Source: Planctomycetota bacterium
GTDB lineage: Bacteria > Planctomycetota > Phycisphaerae > Phycisphaerales > SM1A02
DNA length: 64,000 bases
Assembly: GCA_027618565.1 (NCBI GenBank)
Contig: JAQCEQ010000006.1
Span: 1 to 64,000, forward strand
Reading direction: 5' to 3'
The number at the start of each line of letters is the position of its first letter. Position 1 is the stretch's first letter. The position numbers and the translations under genes are program-made. Positions 24,761-37,798 of this stretch are shown here, one piece after another. Under the pieces are notes generated by a model that was not told the origin of the DNA, searched no databases, and saw only the letters and a program-made list of their open reading frames with translations.

Positions 24761-26746
24761 TCACACCTGCCGCAAGTACCACCACCACTCCAGCGCCAGC
24801 ATCGCCAGCGCCGCCAGGAGCAGCCACGACCAGATCGCACGGCGACCGCCGCCGCTGCCGCTCGCCGACACGGCCTGCCCGTTGGGGCTGGAGACCTGCA
24901 GCTCGTTGGCAACATCCAGGCGCGACTCGTCTTCGCCGGGACCCTCTACTGCGATGCGGCTGGTGGTGACGCCGCCGACTTCGATCGACCAGATTCCCAG
25001 GAGATCCAACGGTCCCACCACCGCCAGCCCGTCGGCGCCAGACATGGCCGACCGCACGCGCCCTGACGCATGCGTGGCCTGGACCGTGCGCCCCGCGCCT
25101 CCAGCCTCCACTCGGTGCGACTGACCCAGCGCACGAGGTTCCGCGGCGATCGGCCGGGCAAATCCAGCCAGCCACTGGACGGCGTTGCTGGAAAAGTTCA
25201 GGAACCCGCGCTGGAACGGCCAGTTGGAGTCGAGCGGGTCAAACGGCACGATCACCAGCTGCAGGGAGGGCGCCACGCTGGCGATGGCGAGCGGTCCCTC
25301 GGATCCCTCGATCACCACTTCGCCTCGAGCGGTGGGGACCACCGCAGCGTGTAATCGAACCACCAATTCATCCAGTGCGACATACCGCAAGAGGGCGTGG
25401 TCACTGCGCGAGCCAACCACGACGGCACCTTCCTTGGTGCCAAAGACCTCCACGCCGGGAAGCCCTTCGGGGTTGCCGAAGCAGAGGTATCGACCCGGAG
25501 GAAGCGGCAGAGGCAGCGTCCCTCGCACGATGATGGCATCGAATGAGCGGCTGAACGCCTCGTCCTGCTGGCTTCGCTCCAGAAACTCCTTCGCCGAGAA
25601 CTCAACCAGTTCCGCTGGCTCCAGGCTCTCCAGCACCGAGCGGAGGACGAAGTCATCCGCGCCCAGCAGCGCCAGGCGAAGTTCACGAGGGGGCGGCACG
25701 ATGATGCCCGCCACATCGTCGCGGGGCAACATGTCTGGCTCCGAGAACGCCACCTCCACCAAGCCACCTTGCGGCAAGGCGATGGCCGGGAACGCGACTT
25801 CCACCTCGCCGGGGCGGAGGACACCGTCCACCGAGACCCGCGCCGGCAGCCGGGTCGGCACCGGAAGCACGGCACGCGGGCGGCCGTCCACGCGCAGCTC
25901 CACATCAGCCTCCTGGTCAACGTCGCCCCAGTGGACCAATCGAGCCAGCGTCTTGACCAGGGACGGTTCGTCAGGGTCGCGAGTCATGCCAAGCGACACC
26001 ACTCCCCTGTTCGCTGCCGCGGGATCACCGATGGAATGAAAGATGATCGACTCTTCCGGGCGAAGCGCCACGCCAGAGAGGTCGTCGATCCGCCCGTCGC
26101 TGAAGATCTCCAGCACCACTTCCTCCGGCGCGGCAGCCTCCTGGTCGTCGGGATTGACCGTGGCGAGCGCGGATCGCACCAGTTCGATCGCCTCCAGGAT
26201 CTCTGAGCTGCCATCGACCGGCTCCACCGTCTCCACGGCATCGGACGACTGCTGTTCGCCGTCCGTGAAGCCCGACAGCACTTGCGCGCTCCCACCAAAC
26301 GCCACCACCATGACACTGGCGGAATCGCCCATCCAGAAGCTACCCGAATGCAGCGACGCGATCCGGTCGGTGGCCTGGCGCTTCGCTTCCGCGAGCCGCG
26401 TCGCCTGGGCACCAGTCGCACCACCGTCGCCATCCTGTGCCTGCATCGAGAGCGATCGGTCGATCAGCATCGCGTGCTTTCCGGCTCGTGCGCCGCCCTG
26501 GACTTCCGGCTGCGACAGCGCGAGCGCGAGGAGCGCCAGGACCAGGAACTGCAGCAGCAAGAGCAGGCTGAACCGCAGCCGCTGGAATGGGACATTGGCG
26601 CGAAGGTCCGCGGTCGCGGTCCGCCACAGGAGCGTGCTGGGCACCTCGCGCGTGCGCCGGCGCAACTTCAGGATGTAGAGCGCGATGAGGGGTGGCAGGA
26701 GGCCTCCCGCCACCAACAGTCCGGTCCACGGGTCCAGCCAGGTCAC
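24761..26746 (-). CDS. BatA-type VWA membrane protein
   Basis: The 661-residue protein starts with the BatA (aerotolerance regulator) N-terminal module: two transmembrane helices (about 8-27 and 58-79) around KLRRRTREVPSTLLWR. A VWA domain follows with a MIDAS-like DRSLS (96-100; consensus DxSxS). The rest is a long extracytoplasmic region with beta-rich segments and a final transmembrane helix near the end (AIWSWLLLAALAMLALEWWWYL). It is the last of seven minus-strand genes starting at 36891, and its ATG overlaps the DUF58 stop by 4 nt. In related MoxR clusters such proteins are thought to present metal-dependent protein-binding surfaces acted on by the MoxR ATPase. Confidence 0.88.
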   Translation of the reverse strand: MTWLDPWTGLLVAGGLLPPLIALYILKLRRRTREVPSTLLWRTATADLRANVPFQRLRFSLLLLLQFLVLALLALALSQPEVQGGARAGKHAMLIDRSLSMQAQDGDGGATGAQATRLAEAKRQATDRIASLHSGSFWMGDSASVMVVAFGGSAQVLSGFTDGEQQSSDAVETVEPVDGSSEILEAIELVRSALATVNPDDQEAAAPEEVVLEIFSDGRIDDLSGVALRPEESIIFHSIGDPAAANRGVVSLGMTRDPDEPSLVKTLARLVHWGDVDQEADVELRVDGRPRAVLPVPTRLPARVSVDGVLRPGEVEVAFPAIALPQGGLVEVAFSEPDMLPRDDVAGIIVPPPRELRLALLGADDFVLRSVLESLEPAELVEFSAKEFLERSQQDEAFSRSFDAIIVRGTLPLPLPPGRYLCFGNPEGLPGVEVFGTKEGAVVVGSRSDHALLRYVALDELVVRLHAAVVPTARGEVVIEGSEGPLAIASVAPSLQLVIVPFDPLDSNWPFQRGFLNFSSNAVQWLAGFARPIAAEPRALGQSHRVEAGGAGRTVQATHASGRVRSAMSGADGLAVVGPLDLLGIWSIEVGGVTTSRIAVEGPGEDESRLDVANELQVSSPNGQAVSASGSGGGRRAIWSWLLLAALAMLALEWWWYLRQV

Positions 26747-27635
26747 TTGAGGAGCCCCCGTCGGCGCAGGTAGTCCAGCAAGAGGTCATCCATCGGCATG
26801 TCGGTGCGCACTTGCATGTGCGTGATCCCGCGACGGATGCAGGCTTCGCGCAGATCCTCGGTGTGTTCGCGAAGCCGATCCTTGTACGCATCGACGGTGC
26901 GTGTGGTGATGCTCACTTCCACCGGAGTGCCGCGCTCGCTGTCCACCAATCTCATATCGCCAGTGAGGGCCGTGGATGGGTCGATCTCCTCGGGGGCCAG
27001 GCACTGGATCGCGAAGACATCGAAGCCGCGACCGGCGATCGCCTTCAGCCCAGTTTCCGCCCCCTCGGGGAACAGGAAGTCCGACACGACGACCAGTACG
27101 CCGCGACCCTGGCCGCCCAGGGCGATCGACCGCATGGCGTCGGGGAACTGGAATTCGCCACCTGCCTCGCGCGCCAGGATCCATTGCCCAAGGTCTCGGA
27201 TGCGACGCCGACCTCGCAGCCCGGTCAGCCGCTCCGTGCGGTCGCCGCCAAAGGCAAAGCACCCCACGCGCGACTGGTTCACCAAGCCGATGTAGCCAAG
27301 CGACATCGCCAGGCGTCGTACAAAGTCAAACTTGGATGGCTCGCCTCCCTTCATCGACCCACTGCAGTCCAGCGCGAGGATGAGCGAGAGGTCTTCCTCC
27401 TCCATGAACATCTTGAGGAAGAGGCGATCCAGGCGGCCGTAGATGTTCCAGTCCACGAAGCGGAGGTCGTCACCCTCGGCATAGGGGCGGTAGTCGGCAA
27501 ACTCCACGCTCTGCCCTCGGCGGCGTGACCGGCGTTCGCCCTGGACCTTGCCCATGAAGACCTTGCGGCTGACCACGTCCAGCGTGTCCAGCCGCGCCAT
27601 GAGCCGGGAATCCAGGAGTTCGTCGACGCGGGTGA

Positions 27636-27639
<4 letters not shown>
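26743..27639 (-). CDS. DUF58 domain protein with VWA-type MIDAS
   Basis: The 298-residue cytosolic protein has the DUF58 hallmark RSRRRGQSVEFADYRPYAEGDDLRFVDWNIYGRLDRLFLKMFMEE (about 38-82), followed by a VWA-like domain with DCSGS (91-95). DUF58 proteins nearly always accompany MoxR ATPases. The start is GTG 27639, overlapping the moxR stop by 4 nt (GTGA); an ATG 13 codons further in is the alternative. The 3' end overlaps the BatA-type gene by 4 nt. Tight coupling argues that the three products act as one unit, with MoxR remodelling or inserting metal into VWA clients. Confidence 0.9.
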
Positions 27640-28665
<1,026 letters not shown>

Positions 28666-28676
<11 letters not shown>

Positions 28677-31600
28677 CGTCCACCTCCCGTCGTGCGCGCT
28701 CGCGGGCGCGGCGCAGTCGCTCCAGGGGGGAGAGCGAGGCATCCGAGGCACCGTCGGTGGGCTCCGACTCTGTGCCGGTCACCGCCTCGTCTCGCCGGTG
28801 CGCGGATTCGCCGTCGCTGGGCGAGGCAACGCTCGCGGGAGCCGCTGAAGCCGTCCGGCGCGAGCCTGGGTCCTTGCGCGGCATCGCGGTGGTTGCAGGT
28901 GTCGAGGTTTCTGCGCCCACGTCCCGAGTCGCCTCGCCTTCGCGCACACGCCTCAGCGCATCCAGCCCCCCGCGCGAACCGGATGCCGTGGCACCCACGA
29001 CGCGCTGCGCCAGTGAGGTCGCCCCGGATCGGTCGAACACCAGCCGCCGCGCGGCGATGTCGATGATGAGCGCGATCGCTGCAATGAGCGCGAGCAGGTC
29101 CCAGATCCGGCGCTGCGCAGTTGGGATCTTGAGCCCTTCGGCGAGGAACAGGTTGCTGCTGGCTGCGCCCTGGAGCGAAAGCACACGACCACCCGTGAGC
29201 TCAGCGACTTCACGAAGGAGCGGCGCGTTGTCGCGCGTGGCCAGGTACTCGCGAGGGTACGGAGAGCTGACCGCCGCGTGCAGGACTCCCCCGCCGCCAC
29301 CCGCTGGGCCCACGAGCGGCACCTGAACCAAGTAGGCACCGCGCGCGGACACCGGGTGCTCTCCGTGCCATCGGCCCGGCGCCACTTGCTCCAGTCGAAC
29401 AGCCTCGGCCGTGCCATCGGGACGCAGGATGGTCGCCGTACGCCCCGCCACCCGTGATTCGCCCGTGCCGGTCTCGATCTCGATCTGGATGGACTCGCCC
29501 TCCAGCGTCATTCGCATCGCCACATCCTGCGGAGAGGGCGGGCGCATCAGCCATCGCACCGTCCGCTCCACAAATCCCTGCAGCCCCGACCATGAAGCCC
29601 ACGCCGCGCCCCATCGACCTGCCAAGTCCGTGGTGAGCGCGGCCGCACGCCCGGTGCCATGGTTCCACCACGCAAAGATCGGGTCGTCGTAGGAACTCCC
29701 CGGCCGACGCGCGTCCGCCGCCATGTTGAGGACACCAATCTCCGCCAGTCCGCCGCGGGGGACGGTGACGACATACCCCTGGATCGGCGGCACCGTTGAG
29801 AGCCCGGTCATGGGCCCAGAGTTGGACTGCAGGACTGTCGGCTGGAAGTCGCCTTCCACGATGAGCGAACGAGACACCATCGTCGCTTCCTTGGTCACCA
29901 CCTTGGGGAGCAGCTTGGGGTTGATGACATTGTGGAAGGTGCCGCCCGTCTGCTCGGCAACGGCGCGCATGTTCTGGAGGTCGGTGGCCGTGCCGTGCCC
30001 AGCGACCATGACCGTCGTGATGGAGATCCCCTCCGCGCGGCAACTGTCCAGGAGTAACTGCTGCGGCGGGCTGGGGTCGCCATCGGAAATGATGATGATG
30101 TGGCGCTGCCCCGCCTTGACGCCCATCAGCCCCTCGTAGGCCAGCTTGAGCGACGACTCAAAGTCCGGCATGTCGCCGACGCTCATCGTGCGCGCAACGA
30201 CACGGGCCTTGACCTTGTCGCCGGCCAGCTGCATCGGGTACTGCCAGCTGGAGCCGGAACCGGCGTTGTTCCAGGCAAACGACACGATGCCCAGGTAGTC
30301 CTGCGCGCTCAGCGTCTCGATGGCCGCCAACGCAATTTTCTCTGCCCAGTAATTGCCCTCCGGCAACTCGCACGAGTGCATGATGAGCGCCAGCGCGCCG
30401 CGCGGCAGTTCACGCGTGGCGGGCGGGTCCATCTTCACGGGAAGGACGGCCGCCGCCTCGCTCCCGATCCAGCCGCCGGCGCCAAACGCGTGGTCGCCAC
30501 CCAACATCCACAGCCCTCCGCCAAGGTCCGCGACATAGGACTTGAGCGCGCGGTCCAGCTGGTTGGAGATGTCAAACCTCGCCACGTTTGCCAGGATCAC
30601 GGCGTCGTAGGAGGCCAGCGCGAGAGGGTCGTTGAGGGAGGACGGGTCAGCGATGTCGACGCCGATCTGCGCGGCCCGCAGCGCACGCGCGACGATCGCA
30701 CTCTCCGCCCCGCCCTGCCCGATGGATGGATCGATGATGAGCACGCGCCCCTCCCCTCCCGCGAACACGATGGCCTCGCCCGAATTGTTCTGGACCAGCG
30801 CATCGCCACTGCCCTCCACGGGAACAAACGAGACACGGTATCGCGAGGCACCGGCGTGGAAGAGCTCGACGGGCAGCCGGATCGTGTTGCTGCCGGGATC
30901 CAGCCTGACCGCGACCCCGTCGCCGGCGTCGCTTGGCGAGAGATCCACCTGGACACTGTCTTGCCAGAGGAAGAGCTTCCCCGAGGTTTCCTTGGGTGAC
31001 TTGACCACCACCTTGAGGTCGACCGGCTGACCAACTCGACCGCGTGCAGGCGCCTGCACAGACTCCAGCACCACCTCCGCATCGCGCCGGTACTCCAGAG
31101 GGATCACGTCGATCGGCACGCCGGCGGCACGAGCCGCCATGGCCGCCTCCCGCAACGAACCCGTGGTCTCGTTTCCATCGCTCACCAAGAGCAGCCGATG
31201 GCTGGTGTCGGGCGGGAGGAGCGCCAGCGACCGGCGCACCGCACCCTCCAGGTCCGTCGCGTCGCGCTCGGTGATGCCGACATCGTCCAGGTTGCCCGGT
31301 GCGGTGCTTGGCATGCTCAGGGTCACCGCGTCGCGCCCGGCGGTCACCAGCCCGAGGCGGTCGATGGGCCGCTCGCGAGTCGCCAGTGCTTCCTCCACAA
31401 CCTTGAATGCGGCCTCCTGCAACTCAAGCGGCACGGACTCGCTGACATCCACCACCACCATCGTGCTCACGCCTTCTCCTTGGCGCTTGGCGGTGGGCTG
31501 GGCCAGGCTCAGCGCCAGGAGCGCGATGAGAAGGCCGCGAATCGTGATCGCAACCGATGCTCGCACAGTTCCAATCGCCGCGCGCCGTCGCCATGCGAGG

Positions 31601-31677
31601 ATCGCAAAGATCGGAATCAGCCCCAACAGGAGGAGGGCGACCGGGCGCTCCAGCGTGAACTCGAGGCCTTCACCCAT
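28666..31677 (-). CDS. large membrane protein with VWA and glutamine-amidotransferase-like domains
   Basis: The 1003-residue protein has two N-terminal transmembrane helices (about 12-29, 41-60), a VWA domain with intact MIDAS DVSES (77-81), a beta-rich segment, and a GATase1-like segment starting near RVLIIDPSIGQGG (with GGGLWMLGGDHAFGAGGW). A second VWA-like domain follows in which the MIDAS is degenerate (LALIMHSCELPEG) but HIIIISDGDPSPP remains. A transmembrane helix lies near 860-880, then a charged Ala/Ser/Glu/Arg tail that would be cytosolic, where MoxR could act. This architecture recurs in planctomycete MoxR clusters. Its function is unproven. It is 12 nt downstream of the permease-NHL gene. 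Confidence 0.87.
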
Positions 31678-31689
31678 GGGATGGCCAGT

Positions 31690-34059
31690 CTACGGTTCCA
31701 GGACTTGGACGCGACCGTTGCGAGAGTCGCACACATGGACTCGTCCCCCACGAACCGCCACCGCCCATGGGGCCGCGAACTGCCCGACATCGCTCCCGCC
31801 CGAGCCGATGCTGCGCGTGATGGCCGCACTCTCCAGGTCGATCACCTGAAGCCGGTTGGCGCCAAACTCCGACACCACCAGTTCCCCATCGCCCAGTCGA
31901 TCCACGCCGTACGGGTACCAGAGGTGGCCGTGTTCCATGCCGGCCGACCCGATCGCCCGAATGAACCGCCCGTCCAGGTCAAGCTCCACGATTCTGTGGT
32001 GGCACGCATCTGCGACGAAGAGGCGACCTGCCGCCTCATCCAGCACGATGGCCTGCGGGCGGTCAAGGTGCGGGATCCCGGTGAGGCGTTCCTCCTCGAT
32101 GCCAGAATCGTCCAGCGGCCCGCGAACGCCGAAGCACCTCAGCCACGATCCATCGGCGGCAAACTCGTGGATGCGGTCATTCCCGCCGTACTCGCTCACC
32201 AGGATTCGCCCGTCGCTGCGGATGGCCACATCCGTTGGATAGATGAACTGTCCCGGACCCGTGCCGCCCTCTCCCACCACCTGGAGCAGGTTCCCCTCTC
32301 GATCGAACCGGACCACCCGATGCTCATGAGTGTCGGCGACCCAGATCGACCCATCGGGGCCGATGCTCACGCCGGTCGGCTTGCCCCGCTCTACCGCGGG
32401 CATCTTCCATGTGTTGAGCAACGTCCCGTCACCACTGAATCGTTGCACACGACCGGTCTTGTCGATGACCACGATCGAGCCGTCGGCGGGATCGACCGAA
32501 AGCGCCCGCGGCATCTCGAAGCAACCGGGCGATCGGCCAGGCGAGCCGATGACGAGCCTGACGCTGGGGTTCTCGGTCGAGACTTCGTGCTCGTTGGCAA
32601 GCACCTGGTCGCACCCGGCGAGCGAGCAGCCGAGTGCCATGGCCAGCACCACCGAGGCGATGGCCTTCCCACGCACTCGCCACCATCGCACCGCGCACCA
32701 CCCCACGACCGCGATCCCGACGATCGGCAGCACCAGCACGATGGGTCCCGGCCGTTGGTAGTGCAGCGCATCGACCAATCGCGTCGCCAGTCGATCCGCA
32801 CCCACAGGCTCAAGGAGCGACGAAAGCGAGACATCCGTGAATGCCAGGAGCGTTCCGATCGCCAGGGTGGTCCCGGCCAGTCGCCTGAGCATCGGGGACT
32901 GTGCCATCAACAACGGTCGTCCGCGTCCGGTGAGGCGCGCGGCATCCACCAGTGCTGGGTCCACGCCTGACCACGCCACCAGCGCGCCGATCCATGCGAC
33001 GGGGGCCAATCGCACCGCATGCCCCAGGAGGAGCGCAGGCCATCCGTCGGACACTTCGCGCACGAGCGTCGCCACCAGTGCCGGAGGCATCGCGGCAGCC
33101 ACCAGCGTGAGCGACGTGGCCGAGGCGATGGCCCACCGCCCGCGCCGGCGCACCGCCAGCCACCACCATGCGCCGACGGCGCACGCACTCAACGCCACGC
33201 CGACCGCGAGGGCCTCGGCGATCGATCGCAAGGCGCCGGCGATGTGCTCGATGCGCAGGGACTCGTCACCCGCGATGAACCAAGGGACCACGGTCACGCA
33301 CAGGAGCGCAAGCGCGCCGCTCGCGGGGAGGAGTCCGGCCAGAACACGCGCCCCGGTTCCCAGCGGCACATCGACCTCTCGCTCGGAGGTCTCGCTTGCC
33401 CGTCGCTGCAGCCTTCGCGCGAGTGCGCACGATCCAATCCCCGCCAGGACAACCGCCGAGGCGAACATCGGTGCGCTCAGCCAAAGCACCTCGGCGGTGG
33501 GAGTGCCCAGCGCCACCAAGGACCTCAACTCGAAGGCCACGGTCCGGACCTGCGCCAGGTCAAACACCGTCGACTCACCACTGAGCACCAGCGCGACCGC
33601 CATGCCTCCAGCGGCAGCGCCCGGCGCGCGTCGGTGCCACTCGATCCGGAATCGCTGCAAGAAAGTTGCACCGTCCAGCCGCACCAATGCATCGGATGGG
33701 CGCGCCTCTCGCCAGGCCACGCACGCCAGCGTCGCCATCGCACCTCCCCACACCAGGAGTGAGCATGCCAGTGCCACCAGTCGCCAGCCCTCCACCGTGA
33801 CGCCAGCACCACTCCCGAGGAACATGCCGAGCGGCCTGTCCGGGGCCACGATGCTCCACAGGCAGAACCATGTCGTGAACGGCGGCGTGATCGCCGCGGC
33901 CACAAGGACCCAGAAGCGCGCGGACCCCACTCGCACAGCTGGTGCCGTCACCAGCGCGGCAGCCGCCGACGCCACGGCGATCACCAACACCCAGGCGACC
34001 GTGCGCCACTCTGTCGTGGACCACGGCTCAAGCAGCGATGCTTCACCCATCGGTCCCAC
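31690..34059 (-). CDS. ABC-type (iron-like) permease fused to an NHL-repeat propeller
   Basis: The 789-residue protein has about eleven hydrophobic segments (1-460) and an EAA-like loop that contacts an ABC ATPase (VDAARLTGRGRPLLMAQSPML, about 371-391), resembling Fe(III)/thiamine permeases of the FbpB/ThiP type. The last hydrophobic segment reads like a lipoprotein signal (VRGKAIASVVLAMALGCSL then AGC, Cys483). From about 495 it is a six-bladed NHL propeller: PRALSVDPADGSIVVID, GVSIGPDGSIWVADTHEHRV, DVAIRSDGRILVSEYGG, and more. A GTG codon at 32676 could independently start the propeller as a 328-residue lipoprotein. The 5' end overlaps the binding-protein gene by 17 nt (or 8 nt from the second ATG). 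No ATPase gene is nearby. Confidence 0.85.
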   Translation of the reverse strand: MGPMGEASLLEPWSTTEWRTVAWVLVIAVASAAAALVTAPAVRVGSARFWVLVAAAITPPFTTWFCLWSIVAPDRPLGMFLGSGAGVTVEGWRLVALACSLLVWGGAMATLACVAWREARPSDALVRLDGATFLQRFRIEWHRRAPGAAAGGMAVALVLSGESTVFDLAQVRTVAFELRSLVALGTPTAEVLWLSAPMFASAVVLAGIGSCALARRLQRRASETSEREVDVPLGTGARVLAGLLPASGALALLCVTVVPWFIAGDESLRIEHIAGALRSIAEALAVGVALSACAVGAWWWLAVRRRGRWAIASATSLTLVAAAMPPALVATLVREVSDGWPALLLGHAVRLAPVAWIGALVAWSGVDPALVDAARLTGRGRPLLMAQSPMLRRLAGTTLAIGTLLAFTDVSLSSLLEPVGADRLATRLVDALHYQRPGPIVLVLPIVGIAVVGWCAVRWWRVRGKAIASVVLAMALGCSLAGCDQVLANEHEVSTENPSVRLVIGSPGRSPGCFEMPRALSVDPADGSIVVIDKTGRVQRFSGDGTLLNTWKMPAVERGKPTGVSIGPDGSIWVADTHEHRVVRFDREGNLLQVVGEGGTGPGQFIYPTDVAIRSDGRILVSEYGGNDRIHEFAADGSWLRCFGVRGPLDDSGIEEERLTGIPHLDRPQAIVLDEAAGRLFVADACHHRIVELDLDGRFIRAIGSAGMEHGHLWYPYGVDRLGDGELVVSEFGANRLQVIDLESAAITRSIGSGGSDVGQFAAPWAVAVRGGRVHVCDSRNGRVQVLEP

Positions 34060-35119
34060 TCGCGTCTCGGAGCGCCGCCTGCAGCACGCTCAGCGGGTCG
34101 ATCGCCGCACTGGCGAGTGCCGCTCGCGTTGCAGACGGCGAGAGAAGGCACGGCATTCCCAGTGCCAGCCCAGCGGGAGGCGTGGCACCGGATCCGAGCG
34201 GGATGTTGGCACTGGCGCTCTGGGCCAGCATGGTCTCGACGGATTCGCCCAGGAGGAATCGGGCAAATGCTTCCGCGTCGCGGGGGCTGTCGTTGCCACG
34301 CACGATTCCCACCGTGTTGGGGATGATGAACGCGCTGCCCGCGCCGCACGGCCCTTCTCCATCGAGGAGCGCGATCACCTGGAATTGGATCTTCCGTCCG
34401 CCGGCGATCGCGGCCAAGGCATCGTCGGTGTCCGTGATGCCAAGCGCGGCATCACCGCTGGCGACGGCATCCACCACCGCGGCATTGCCGCCGGTGAGGA
34501 TGAGCGGATTCGTCCCGGCGAGTCGTTCGCACCACGAATTCCAGGCGTCCACGCCGCGAGCCTGCACCAACTCCCCGGCAAGCGCCATCAGGTGGCCACG
34601 TGTCGTTCCAAAACGCGGATCAGCCAGCGCCAGCCGCTCACCGCTGCGCAGGGCAAGCATGATCGACTCCATCGATGCCGCCGGTGGCGGCGCTGCATCT
34701 GCCGGGAACACCAGGACTCGACAACGCCCCGCAAATCCAGCCCACCGACCACCGCCTCCAATCAAGTCAGCCGGCCACGCGTCCGGCACGGCCAGCCCAA
34801 GCGGCGCGAGCAGGTCCTCTGCCGCGAGCTGATCCATCACCGTGTGCTCGCTGCTCCAGAACACGTCCGCCACGGGATGAGTGGCCTCTCGCCGAATGCG
34901 CTCCGCAAGCCCGGTCGTCTTGGAAGCCTCGGTGTCCAGATGGAGGACGACTGGAATGTCCGTCTGCGCCGTGAATGCATCCACGACGGCGCGGGCTACG
35001 GGTTCATCTGCGGAGGCATACACGATGAACTCGCTTGAAGGCTTCACTCCGGCATCGCCGCAGCCGGCAAGCATGGCGACGACGAACACGAGGCCCACCA
35101 CGAGGCCGCCCCGAATCAC
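34043..35119 (-). CDS. lipoprotein substrate-binding protein, iron-type ABC importer family
   Basis: The 358-residue protein starts at GTG 35119 with a signal that ends in a lipobox (MIRGGLVVGLVFVVAMLAGC), anchoring it outside the cytoplasm. The mature part resembles FutA/FbpA-class binding proteins: FIVYASADEPVARAVVDAFTAQTDIPVVL, VADVFWSSEHTVMDQLAAEDLLAPL, ERLALADPRFGTTRGHLMAL, and GSAFIIPNTVGIVRG. Such proteins bind Fe(III) or small anions. The ligand here is not certain, since the tyrosine ligands of FbpA cannot be placed without an alignment. It overlaps the permease-NHL gene. No ATPase gene is adjacent, so import would need a shared ATPase. Confidence 0.85.
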   Translation of the reverse strand: MIRGGLVVGLVFVVAMLAGCGDAGVKPSSEFIVYASADEPVARAVVDAFTAQTDIPVVLHLDTEASKTTGLAERIRREATHPVADVFWSSEHTVMDQLAAEDLLAPLGLAVPDAWPADLIGGGGRWAGFAGRCRVLVFPADAAPPPAASMESIMLALRSGERLALADPRFGTTRGHLMALAGELVQARGVDAWNSWCERLAGTNPLILTGGNAAVVDAVASGDAALGITDTDDALAAIAGGRKIQFQVIALLDGEGPCGAGSAFIIPNTVGIVRGNDSPRDAEAFARFLLGESVETMLAQSASANIPLGSGATPPAGLALGMPCLLSPSATRAALASAAIDPLSVLQAALRDASGTDG

Positions 35120-35184
35120 TCGTTCAGTCCAACCGGGGCCGTGAATGCGGACACTCGCTCGTCGCCACGCGCCCCCCCGCGGCG

Positions 35185-36891
35185 TCACGAATCCCCCGCC
35201 TTGCGCGCCTTCTCCTCCAGTTTGCGCTTCAACTCGCCGAAGTACCGCTGGTGCGCGTCGCGCAGGTGCGGGGGAATCGGGTCCTCCGGCGTGGCACCCT
35301 CGGCTCCGCGCTCCACTTCGCGAGTCACATCGCTCAGGACGCTGCTCACCTGTCCCGCTTCCGGATTGGGGTTGTCGATGAGCTGCCTCGCAATGACTTC
35401 TCCTCCCCGATTCTCCACCTTGACCTTGCGAGTCCGGAGCCCTGTGGCCGTCGATGTCTTGTCCGCCTCGCCTCCAGCGCCGATCCCCGGCCCCTGCATT
35501 CCCGGCCCCACCTGGCCCTGACTTGCGCCCAGCCCTGCCAACGCAGTCGGGGAACCGCCCTGGCACTGCCCTTGTGCGTCGCGCGCTGCCGCCAACATTT
35601 CATCCAACTTGGCAAACTCGTCCATCGCCCCCTTGCCGGAACCGGCCCCGGAGGCGGCACCTTCGCCGGCACCCGGATTGTCGCACGCACCCCGACACTC
35701 AGACGCCATCTTCTGTGCCGCATCCGATGCCTTTGCTTGCGCGTTCACCGCATTCTGGAGCGCTTGGCGCTGTGCTTGGGTCAGTCCCTTGGCTGCCTCC
35801 ATGGCCTGTCGAAGCGCGCCCGGGTTGGAGGCGAGGTCTGGATCAAGTCCGGCGCTGGCCAGTGCATCGCGAAGCCCTTGCTGGCGTTGCGCCGCGTTCT
35901 CCAGTGCCTTGGCCAATTGCTCCAGCTGCTCCTGCATACGCTCGCGCGCCTGGGCATCCATGTCGCCGGAGGCCGCCGCCTGCTCCAATTTCCGGAGTTC
36001 CTCCGCCGCCTTCGCAAAGTCGCCTCGCTTGAGGGCCTCGGCGAGTGGCTTGACCGAGGCATCATCGGGGATGGGCAACGACGCCGTGGCTCGCTCCAGC
36101 GCCGCCAGTTCCTGCGCCTGCTCTCCCTTGAGGAGGCTCTCGAGCCGCTGGCTCATCTCCGTGATTCGCCTGGATGCCTCTCTTCGGATGTCTTCCGGCG
36201 TCCGGGCACCGTCCATCGCGTCCTGTGCAAACTGGGCACCTTCGCCCTCCATCAACTTGGCCAGGTCTTCGTTGGCGTCGATCGCTTCGGTGATCGCCGT
36301 GACCTCTGCTTCGCTGGCTTCGCGTACTTCCGCCAGCAGTGCGGGGTCGATGGTCGGCGCCGCCGGTGCCGGCGTCCATGCCGGCACGAAGAAGAGCACG
36401 AGGCACCCGACGACGAAGGACGCCGCACCCACCTTGGAGGGGAGCATCCAGGGCTCGTCAAAGGCGCGCTTCACTCGCGAGCGAAGCGTGGGGTCACCCG
36501 CGCACGACACGCCATCAGCCACCGCAGCGCGGGCAAACGGATCGTCGGACCCCGCCAGTGCCAGGGCCGACGACAATCGGCTGTCCAGCTTGAGTCGTTC
36601 ATCCACCTCGGCAGCGGCCACCAGTCGCGACACCCTGGAGCGACGCCGTCCGATGGCCAGCGCAGTGAACATGGCCACGCCAGCAGTGGCCATGACCGCA
36701 CCCGAGACTGCCGGCGACGCCGAACCCTCGACCCAATGCGAGAGAACACGCGAGAGGAGGGCCAGCCCCAAGAGGGAGAATCCGACGACCGGCAATACGC
36801 GCCTGGCCAGCCGCAGGGCGCCCGCCAATGACATGGCACGGCGCGCGTCGTCCGCCAATCGCTCAACCGATGCCGTGCCGTGGTGTGCCAC
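35185..36891 (-). CDS. DUF4175-like membrane protein with long coiled coil
   Basis: The 568-residue protein opens with hydrophobic helices (about 28-48, 60-77), a basic cytosolic loop (GRRRSRVSRLVAAAEVDERLKLDSRLSSALAL), a further helix (VGAASFVVGCLVLFFVPAW), then long charged Ala/Glu/Gln-rich helices (about 185-420) and a Gly-rich segment. This is the layout of the large proteins (DUF4175-like) that head MoxR clusters in planctomycetes. The start is GTG 36891, supported by AGGAG seven bases upstream. Length and order make it the first gene of the run, 65 nt ahead of the binding-protein gene. Function unknown; a scaffold in the membrane complex is the simplest idea. Confidence 0.75.
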   Translation of the reverse strand: MAHHGTASVERLADDARRAMSLAGALRLARRVLPVVGFSLLGLALLSRVLSHWVEGSASPAVSGAVMATAGVAMFTALAIGRRRSRVSRLVAAAEVDERLKLDSRLSSALALAGSDDPFARAAVADGVSCAGDPTLRSRVKRAFDEPWMLPSKVGAASFVVGCLVLFFVPAWTPAPAAPTIDPALLAEVREASEAEVTAITEAIDANEDLAKLMEGEGAQFAQDAMDGARTPEDIRREASRRITEMSQRLESLLKGEQAQELAALERATASLPIPDDASVKPLAEALKRGDFAKAAEELRKLEQAAASGDMDAQARERMQEQLEQLAKALENAAQRQQGLRDALASAGLDPDLASNPGALRQAMEAAKGLTQAQRQALQNAVNAQAKASDAAQKMASECRGACDNPGAGEGAASGAGSGKGAMDEFAKLDEMLAAARDAQGQCQGGSPTALAGLGASQGQVGPGMQGPGIGAGGEADKTSTATGLRTRKVKVENRGGEVIARQLIDNPNPEAGQVSSVLSDVTREVERGAEGATPEDPIPPHLRDAHQRYFGELKRKLEEKARKAGDS

Positions 36892-36946
36892 CGATAGACT
36901 CCTGCGTAAAGGATAGCCCCGAGTGCGATTCCCACCCTTGATCGCC

Positions 36947-37798
36947 ATGCATTTGGCTTCGGAACGCGCGGCAGCCGCCCTGCTCGCGGCGATGCTGCTC
37001 CTCGTGACGGGGACCGGGGCCCACGCGCAGAGCGATGCGGAGCTCCGTCGCGAGAATGAGCAGCTCCGAGAGCGGCTCCTGGCGCTGGAACAAGAACTGG
37101 AGGCACTGAAGGCGCGCATCGCGGCGTTGGAGGGCGCTCCCACACGCGACCCGGGTGCCGCTCCGGACCCGGTTCCTGAGGCGCCCGGCACGCCCGCGGG
37201 GCAAGATCCGGGCCCATCGACACCGCCCATCTCCAAAGACCCCGCGCACCAGATCGAGGATGCCACCGTCATTCCGTCCATCGCCGCATCCCCTGACGAG
37301 ATCATCGCCTATGAACGCCTGCGGTATGTCGCTCGGTTCGGGACCAACCCGTACAACGTCACCGACGAACCCGCACAGCTGAAGCGAGTCCTTCGCGAGA
37401 TCGATGCGTGGTCGATCTCCGAGGCCAAGGCGTGGCAACGCACGACGGTGCAGTGGCGGCTCCGTGTGGATCGCGCGACTCGCGCACGCGACGGGCAGTG
37501 GAGCGTGATGGCCTCGGAGCCTCTTTCGGATGGCGATCGACAGGCGCGGGACGCCAGGGGCGAGACCGTGATCCCCATCACCTTCACCTTGAATCGGCGG
37601 ATCGGTGACCGACTCCGCGACACGCTTGAAGCCGGCGGCGAGGTCATCGTTGAGGGAAAGGTCCGGCTCAATGTCCGGCTGGATCCCGACCGACCCGCTG
37701 CGGGCATCTTCAGGCAGAATCTGCGGCCATACATCGGCCCGTTTTGCGATGCCGTCGTCGGGCTTGAAGTGGATGTCATCGAACCGGCGCCGGCATAA
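36947..37798 (+). CDS. exported coiled-coil protein of unknown function
   Basis: The 283-residue product starts with a signal peptide (MHLASERAAAALLAAMLLLV to about GAHAQ). A leucine-zipper-like coiled coil follows (about 30-65, ELRRENEQLRERLLALEQEL), then a Pro/Gly/Asp-rich linker and a C-terminal domain of about 170 residues that I do not recognise (ERLRYVARFGTNPYNVTDEP; ETVIPITFTLNRRIGDRLRD). ATG 36947 fits the signal peptide; a GTG at 36923 is possible but would leave only 31 bp to the divergent gene. It is separated from the BFD-FeoA gene by 2 nt, so it leads the ferrous-iron operon. Confidence 0.7.
   Translation: MHLASERAAAALLAAMLLLVTGTGAHAQSDAELRRENEQLRERLLALEQELEALKARIAALEGAPTRDPGAAPDPVPEAPGTPAGQDPGPSTPPISKDPAHQIEDATVIPSIAASPDEIIAYERLRYVARFGTNPYNVTDEPAQLKRVLREIDAWSISEAKAWQRTTVQWRLRVDRATRARDGQWSVMASEPLSDGDRQARDARGETVIPITFTLNRRIGDRLRDTLEAGGEVIVEGKVRLNVRLDPDRPAAGIFRQNLRPYIGPFCDAVVGLEVDVIEPAPA

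Follow-up and report, generated by a model that had tools for sequence, protein, structure and literature searches.

Both teaching and searches treat the lipoprotein signal as a feature of the N-terminus, and predictors that read no further than this end would overlook an internal lipobox. Lipoproteins pass through the lipidating and cleaving enzymes Lgt and LspA. A membrane protein and an exported protein can also share one translation product: the cytochrome b/c1 polyprotein FbcH of Bradyrhizobium is reported to be cut in two by signal peptidase I, with no lipid involved. In OpuABC (PMC8199443), an importer permease and an extracytoplasmic binding domain lie together in one chain, and the lipobox itself is given in PMC8689077 as the pattern [LV][ASTVI][GAS]C. 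We found no account of an internal lipobox, or of a polyprotein cut by LspA, in the open-access literature, a scope that most subscription papers fall outside. Here we describe a gene in which a permease and an NHL beta-propeller are joined, in one open frame, through a conserved internal lipobox. It was identified in a stretch of 64,000 nucleotides (hereafter the window) from the Planctomycetota bacterium contig JAQCEQ010000006.1, and its relatives were followed through the family, order, class and phylum.

The fused gene and its neighbourhood

The gene is a single open reading frame (ORF) running from 34059 to 31690 (Table 1), in which the junction between permease and propeller reads ...VRGKAIASVVLAMALGCSLAGC (residues 462–483). 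At this junction an in-frame GTG (32676-32674) is followed by CGT GGG AAG GCC, giving the reading V/M-RGKAIASVVLAMALGCSLAGC with the Cys as residue 483, and the tetrapeptide LAGC matches the published lipobox pattern. The fusion and the embedded lipobox with a GTG at 32676 had been proposed in a first-pass annotation of the same DNA, and the ORF and its coordinates check out; the annotation was otherwise correct in its description and lacked only the strand, which is minus. The lipoprotein signal occupies residues 462-482 of 789 and is hence not N-terminal.

The propeller half was recognized in a Pfam search of the window's ORFs, and its model superimposes on the NHL domain of Thin (6xg7) with a Z of 40.9 and an rmsd of 1.8 across 276 residues. 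The identity of the permease half comes from a sequence profile, the match lists of the structure searches (Foldseek, VIA-align) having been filled by the propeller half. This membrane-half profile aligned to an iron ABC transporter permease of solved structure, PDB 9j4r_A (E 8e-19; profile 14-477, chain 32-492), and the match stops at the terminal Arg-Arg of the chain, which is aligned to the Arg-rich loop directly before the signal. A single-sequence search with the permease half returned nothing relevant, and Pfam BPD_transp_1 did not match the window protein; even with E values up to 0.1 accepted, it was present in three of the 54 relatives. In the predicted structure (mean pLDDT 87.8) the last permease helix (437–463) is followed by a short loop, a 14-residue helix (467–480), a disordered segment (478–494) and then the propeller, which begins at residue 499. 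Because FbpB/iron-type ABC permeases end in the cytoplasm, the junction signal helix is predicted to run from inside to outside, as a signal peptide does. In the same genome there is one clear match to LspA (PF01252, E 3.9e-29) and one to Lgt (PF01790, E 7.4e-50).

Table 1 Features of the fused gene and of its neighbours in the window.
Feature	Position	Strand	Basis or remark
ORF without Pfam match	35185–37305	-	First in the conserved row
Upstream ORF, solute-binding lipoprotein	34043..35566	-	SBP_bac_11/8/1; N-terminal VFVVAMLAGC lipobox, true start inside the ORF
Fused ORF: permease, internal lipoprotein signal and NHL propeller	31690..34059	-	789 aa, GTG start
Permease half, residues 1-463, iron-type (FbpB-like) ABC importer permease	32671..34059	-	Profile match to 9j4r_A
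Embedded lipoprotein signal, residues 462-482, VRGKAIASVVLAMALGCSLAG	32614..32676	-	Comparison with free lipoproteins; model helix 467-480
Lipobox Cys, residue 483, codon TGC	32611..32613	-	Predicted site of lipid attachment and N-terminal residue of the predicted mature lipoprotein
Lipoprotein tether: disordered linker behind the Cys (residues 484-497)	32569..32610	-	pLDDT < 50 at 478-494
Six-bladed NHL beta-propeller, residues 498-789	31693..32568	-	PF01436, E 8.2e-27
Downstream ORF for a large membrane protein that contains VWA-type regions	28666..31677	-	PF13519, PF13768
MoxR-type AAA ATPase	27636-28751	-	AAA_3; weaker bpMoxR match

The fused gene stands in a row of genes on the minus strand (24761-37305) that comprises an ORF without Pfam match, the solute-binding lipoprotein, the fused gene, the VWA protein, the MoxR-type AAA ATPase, DUF58 and BatA (Bat-type cluster), with the solute-binding lipoprotein ORF overlapping the fused gene by 17 bases. 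This arrangement recurs among the best 80 of the 492 encoding stretches obtained in a scan of named genomes: wherever there was enough flank, the solute-binding protein lay upstream of the fused gene (64/64 loci) and the VWA gene downstream (66/66), with MoxR present in 65 of 66. The MoxR-type ATPase of the window also matches the Pfam family bpMoxR, described as the MoxR domain of 'MoxR-vWA-beta-propeller ternary systems' (E 3.7e-12, weaker than the AAA_3 match); in the window, likewise, it has a VWA protein and a beta-propeller as neighbours. No ABC ATPase was found by Walker A/LSGGQ pattern in the same 80 named fused loci (817 kb, the best 80 of 492), and the 38 PF00005 (ABC_tran) matches in the genome all lie on contigs other than that of the window. 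The permease may have been turned to another use or be served by a distant ATPase encoded elsewhere in the genome.

Conservation of the junction lipobox

The fused loci that were collected (238) comprise 170 distinct sequences after removal of duplicates, among which the junction Cys was placed automatically in 166 and by eye in four (L117, L124, L261, L266). With 11 more sequences from the class search, the Cys is kept in 181 of 181 distinct fused sequences, and it is invariant in smaller sets too (34/34, 64/64 and 54/54). The residue at position -1 is G in 124 of the 170 sequences and G, A or S in 169 of them. Both Cys codons are used at this position (TGC in 98 genes, TGT in 72), and it is therefore the residue that has been kept and not the DNA.

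The rest of the junction is far more variable. In an alignment of 64 rows, made up of the window and 63 of 76 eligible named loci, C483 is 100% and G482 78% conserved, while every other residue in 441–502 reaches 64% at most. The only invariant columns in the membrane half are P59, P325, H433 and C483, as judged from a 54-row alignment of the window and 53 of 80 references, which are themselves a half sample of 161. Sequence identity between the fused proteins is mostly about 30%, and the residues on either side of the conserved pair, the Cys and its -1 neighbour, have diverged. Elsewhere in the membrane halves, 122 of 60,015 positions (0.2%) hold a Cys that has G, A or S at -1 and is preceded by nine uncharged residues; set against this background, the presence of the Cys in every fused sequence means that the lipobox is not due to chance. 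The embedded lipobox is genuine and has been conserved while the rest of the junction diverged.

The make-up of the signal was compared with that of 56 free NHL lipoproteins, which served as the control set. The uncharged run before the Cys has a median length of 16 in both the 170 fused and the 56 free proteins, and R or K closes the uncharged/hydrophobic run in 158 of the 170 and 50 of the 56, respectively. The tetrapeptide is looser in the fusions, with [LVI][ASTVI][GAS]C found in 63/170 vs. 30/56 free proteins (Fisher p 0.04) and the published pattern also rarer (49/170 vs. 26/56). Pro at -2 is common in the internal lipoboxes (27/170).

Distribution of the fused and separate forms

When the whole genomes of the family were searched, 164 of 181 had a match, most matches covering the full length in one open frame, and the family search together with those of the order, class and phylum placed the fusion in 163 genomes from 60 genus groups and 11 family groups. 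Among the loci read, 143 family genomes have a strong NHL match, and 136 of these genomes are fused; as for the other seven, two have separate genes (G060, G069), four loci run off contig ends (G026, G027, G065, G077) and one holds a paralogue only (G059). The scan of named genomes gave loci whose titles include Phycisphaerales, Phycisphaerae, Sedimentisphaerales and Planctomycetota, and all 80 of the best 80 of its 492 stretches are fused. The first-pass annotation had offered, as one explanation, that two genes were fused here by loss of a stop; this is rejected, the fusion being common to 136 of the 143 family genomes with only two others truly separate.

Separate genes, which the annotation had advised looking for in related genomes, do exist. 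In one family group of the same order (f2), and in some members of the class, the two are adjacent genes: the permease frame closes, and the NHL gene that comes after it has its own start and its own lipoprotein signal. Of the 39 separate NHL ORFs accompanied by a same-strand permease, 38 carry an N-terminal lipobox. Beyond the class, most relatives in the phylum have separate ORFs. A lipobox is absent from 12 of the 68 separate NHL ORFs, all of which come from the phylum-wide search, and one of these (L319) has almost nothing before its domain. Homologues that are always fused and devoid of the lipobox, the pattern that the annotation had named as speaking against its proposal, were not what we observed: all fused homologues keep the lipobox, and the others are separate genes.

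When the label of fused or separate was placed on a tree of NHL domains (quick maximum-likelihood; 108 domains remaining of 220 rows after thinning), eight changes were needed, of which at least five are forced by well-supported branches, 47 of the 105 inner branches being weak and gain and loss being indistinguishable by count. Read from this tree, the fused and separate states have interchanged at least five times.

Several individual loci depart from the general pattern. Locus L298 (G418) has the permease and the NHL lipoprotein in the same frame with a single TGA between them, an intermediate between the separate and fused states. Of the two family members with separate NHL genes (L106 in G060 and L154 in G069), L106 has no permease in the fetched stretch, yet the VWA gene is still next to it. 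Unusually long open frames of 1205-1687 aa surround the fused protein in L087, L091, L093 and L136. Five free NHL paralogues (L149-L151, L155, L156) resemble ordinary secreted proteins without a lipobox, and were excluded from the separate-gene orthologues.

Proposed processing of the fused protein

We propose, with a probability of roughly 0.65, that the gene encodes a polyprotein that is lipidated by Lgt at Cys483 and cut internally by LspA. The permease would be threaded into the inner membrane with its last helix leading back to the cytoplasm, followed by the short Arg-rich loop and by the signal helix, which would point outward; the NHL propeller would be exported through Sec. Lgt would add diacylglycerol to Cys483 and LspA would cut just before this residue. 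Two products would result in a fixed 1:1 ratio, namely a lipid-anchored NHL protein and a permease on which the former signal peptide stays behind as an additional helix at the C-terminus. A wider reading, which we hold to be probable but with slightly less assurance, is that the permease-lipoprotein fusion was gained or lost repeatedly in Phycisphaerae and their relatives, each fused form having a working lipobox, and that such LspA-cut polyproteins would supply the permease and its lipid-anchored partner in a fixed ratio with every translation event.

The looser tetrapeptide of the fusions, compared with free lipoproteins, would also suit a protein that is never cut, in which the helix serves simply as one more membrane anchor and the propeller is held outside as in the OpuABC type, perhaps with a lipid on the Cys. 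The topology would be the same, and OpuABC (PMC8199443) is a precedent for joining an extracytoplasmic domain to a permease. An anchor of that sort has no need of a Cys, however, yet the Cys is present throughout the 181 fused sequences and is preceded by G, A or S in nearly all of them, and we consider this alternative unlikely.

Less likely again is an internal translation start, whereby ribosomes would also begin at GTG 32676 in the window, and at other starts in relatives, and produce a free NHL lipoprotein alongside an uncut fusion. The GTG of the window is well placed and is followed by a good n-region, and an ATG, GTG or TTG occurs within 14-45 codons before the Cys in 165 of the 170 fused genes, with a following K or R in range in 158 (103 with ATG). 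Such codons are nevertheless expected by chance in hydrophobic stretches, GTG coding for Val and TTG for Leu. ATG is found in this range in 114 of the 170 genes and is absent from 56, five of the 167 automatically scored genes have none of the three codons, and Met is not enriched in the candidate-start region (3.1% vs. 3.5% just upstream). Shine-Dalgarno-like sites accompany the candidate starts in 17 of the 170 fused genes, as opposed to 19 of the 38 separate NHL genes with a same-strand permease (Fisher p 1.3e-7, calculated on related sequences that are not independent), and there is none before the window GTG. When usable starts were defined more strictly, 138 of 167 genes have a start of any kind, 60 have an ATG and six have a Shine-Dalgarno-like site. 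Moreover, re-starting alone would not require the junction frame to stay open, as it has in 136 family genomes against two that are truly separate. A second in-frame start, the other explanation raised in the first-pass annotation, is thus not conserved; it is possible in single genomes, but selection has kept something else, namely the open reading frame, the pattern of charges and the Cys. The two products from one frame that the annotation envisaged are still the likeliest outcome, although cutting of the chain would explain them better than two starts.

It is very improbable that the lipobox is a relic, left over from the joining of two genes and now without a role. The signal is indeed shaped like that of a free lipoprotein, and relatives with separate genes exist, but at identities of mostly about 30% the flanking residues have diverged where the Cys and the -1 residue have not, and fused relatives without the Cys were not found among the 181. 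A sequencing or assembly artefact, such as a lost stop or a frameshift in the draft assembly of 62 contigs from which the window comes, is refuted: the open frame recurs across 163 genomes as well as 80 named records (the best 80 of 492, some of them from the same organisms).

If the polyprotein reading is true, this lipobox, lying midway along a membrane protein and conserved over 60 genus groups, would extend what Lgt and LspA accept, and would offer a natural route to a permease and a surface partner in one-to-one proportion.

Comparison with known systems

The fused ORF shares with Lgt/LspA lipoproteins a charged stretch, a hydrophobic helix, a lipobox with an invariant Cys, a disordered tether and a folded domain outside, whereas the signal in those proteins is N-terminal and here it stands ~460 residues in, after a complete membrane permease. 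FbcH reportedly has the same general plan, in which a polytopic membrane protein leads into an internal signal helix and then into a domain with its function on the outside, and like an FbcH-type polyprotein the fused ORF holds a membrane protein and an exported protein in one frame by way of a signal helix and has separate-gene relatives. The two differ in the site, which in FbcH is said to be one for signal peptidase I, whereas the fused ORF has a lipobox and the enzyme would be LspA. OpuABC-type proteins (PMC8199443) carry a substrate-binding domain, while the fused ORF carries an NHL propeller linked through a lipobox signal. The FbpB-type permease 9j4r chain A is similar to the membrane half over its full length, to which the fused ORF adds the propeller, with no ABC ATPase gene found nearby in the 80 named loci. 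On our best reading, the junction would work like a lipoprotein signal and like the FbcH polyprotein, but falls outside the definition of lipoproteins by an N-terminal signal, and would represent a new variant of known lipoprotein processing.
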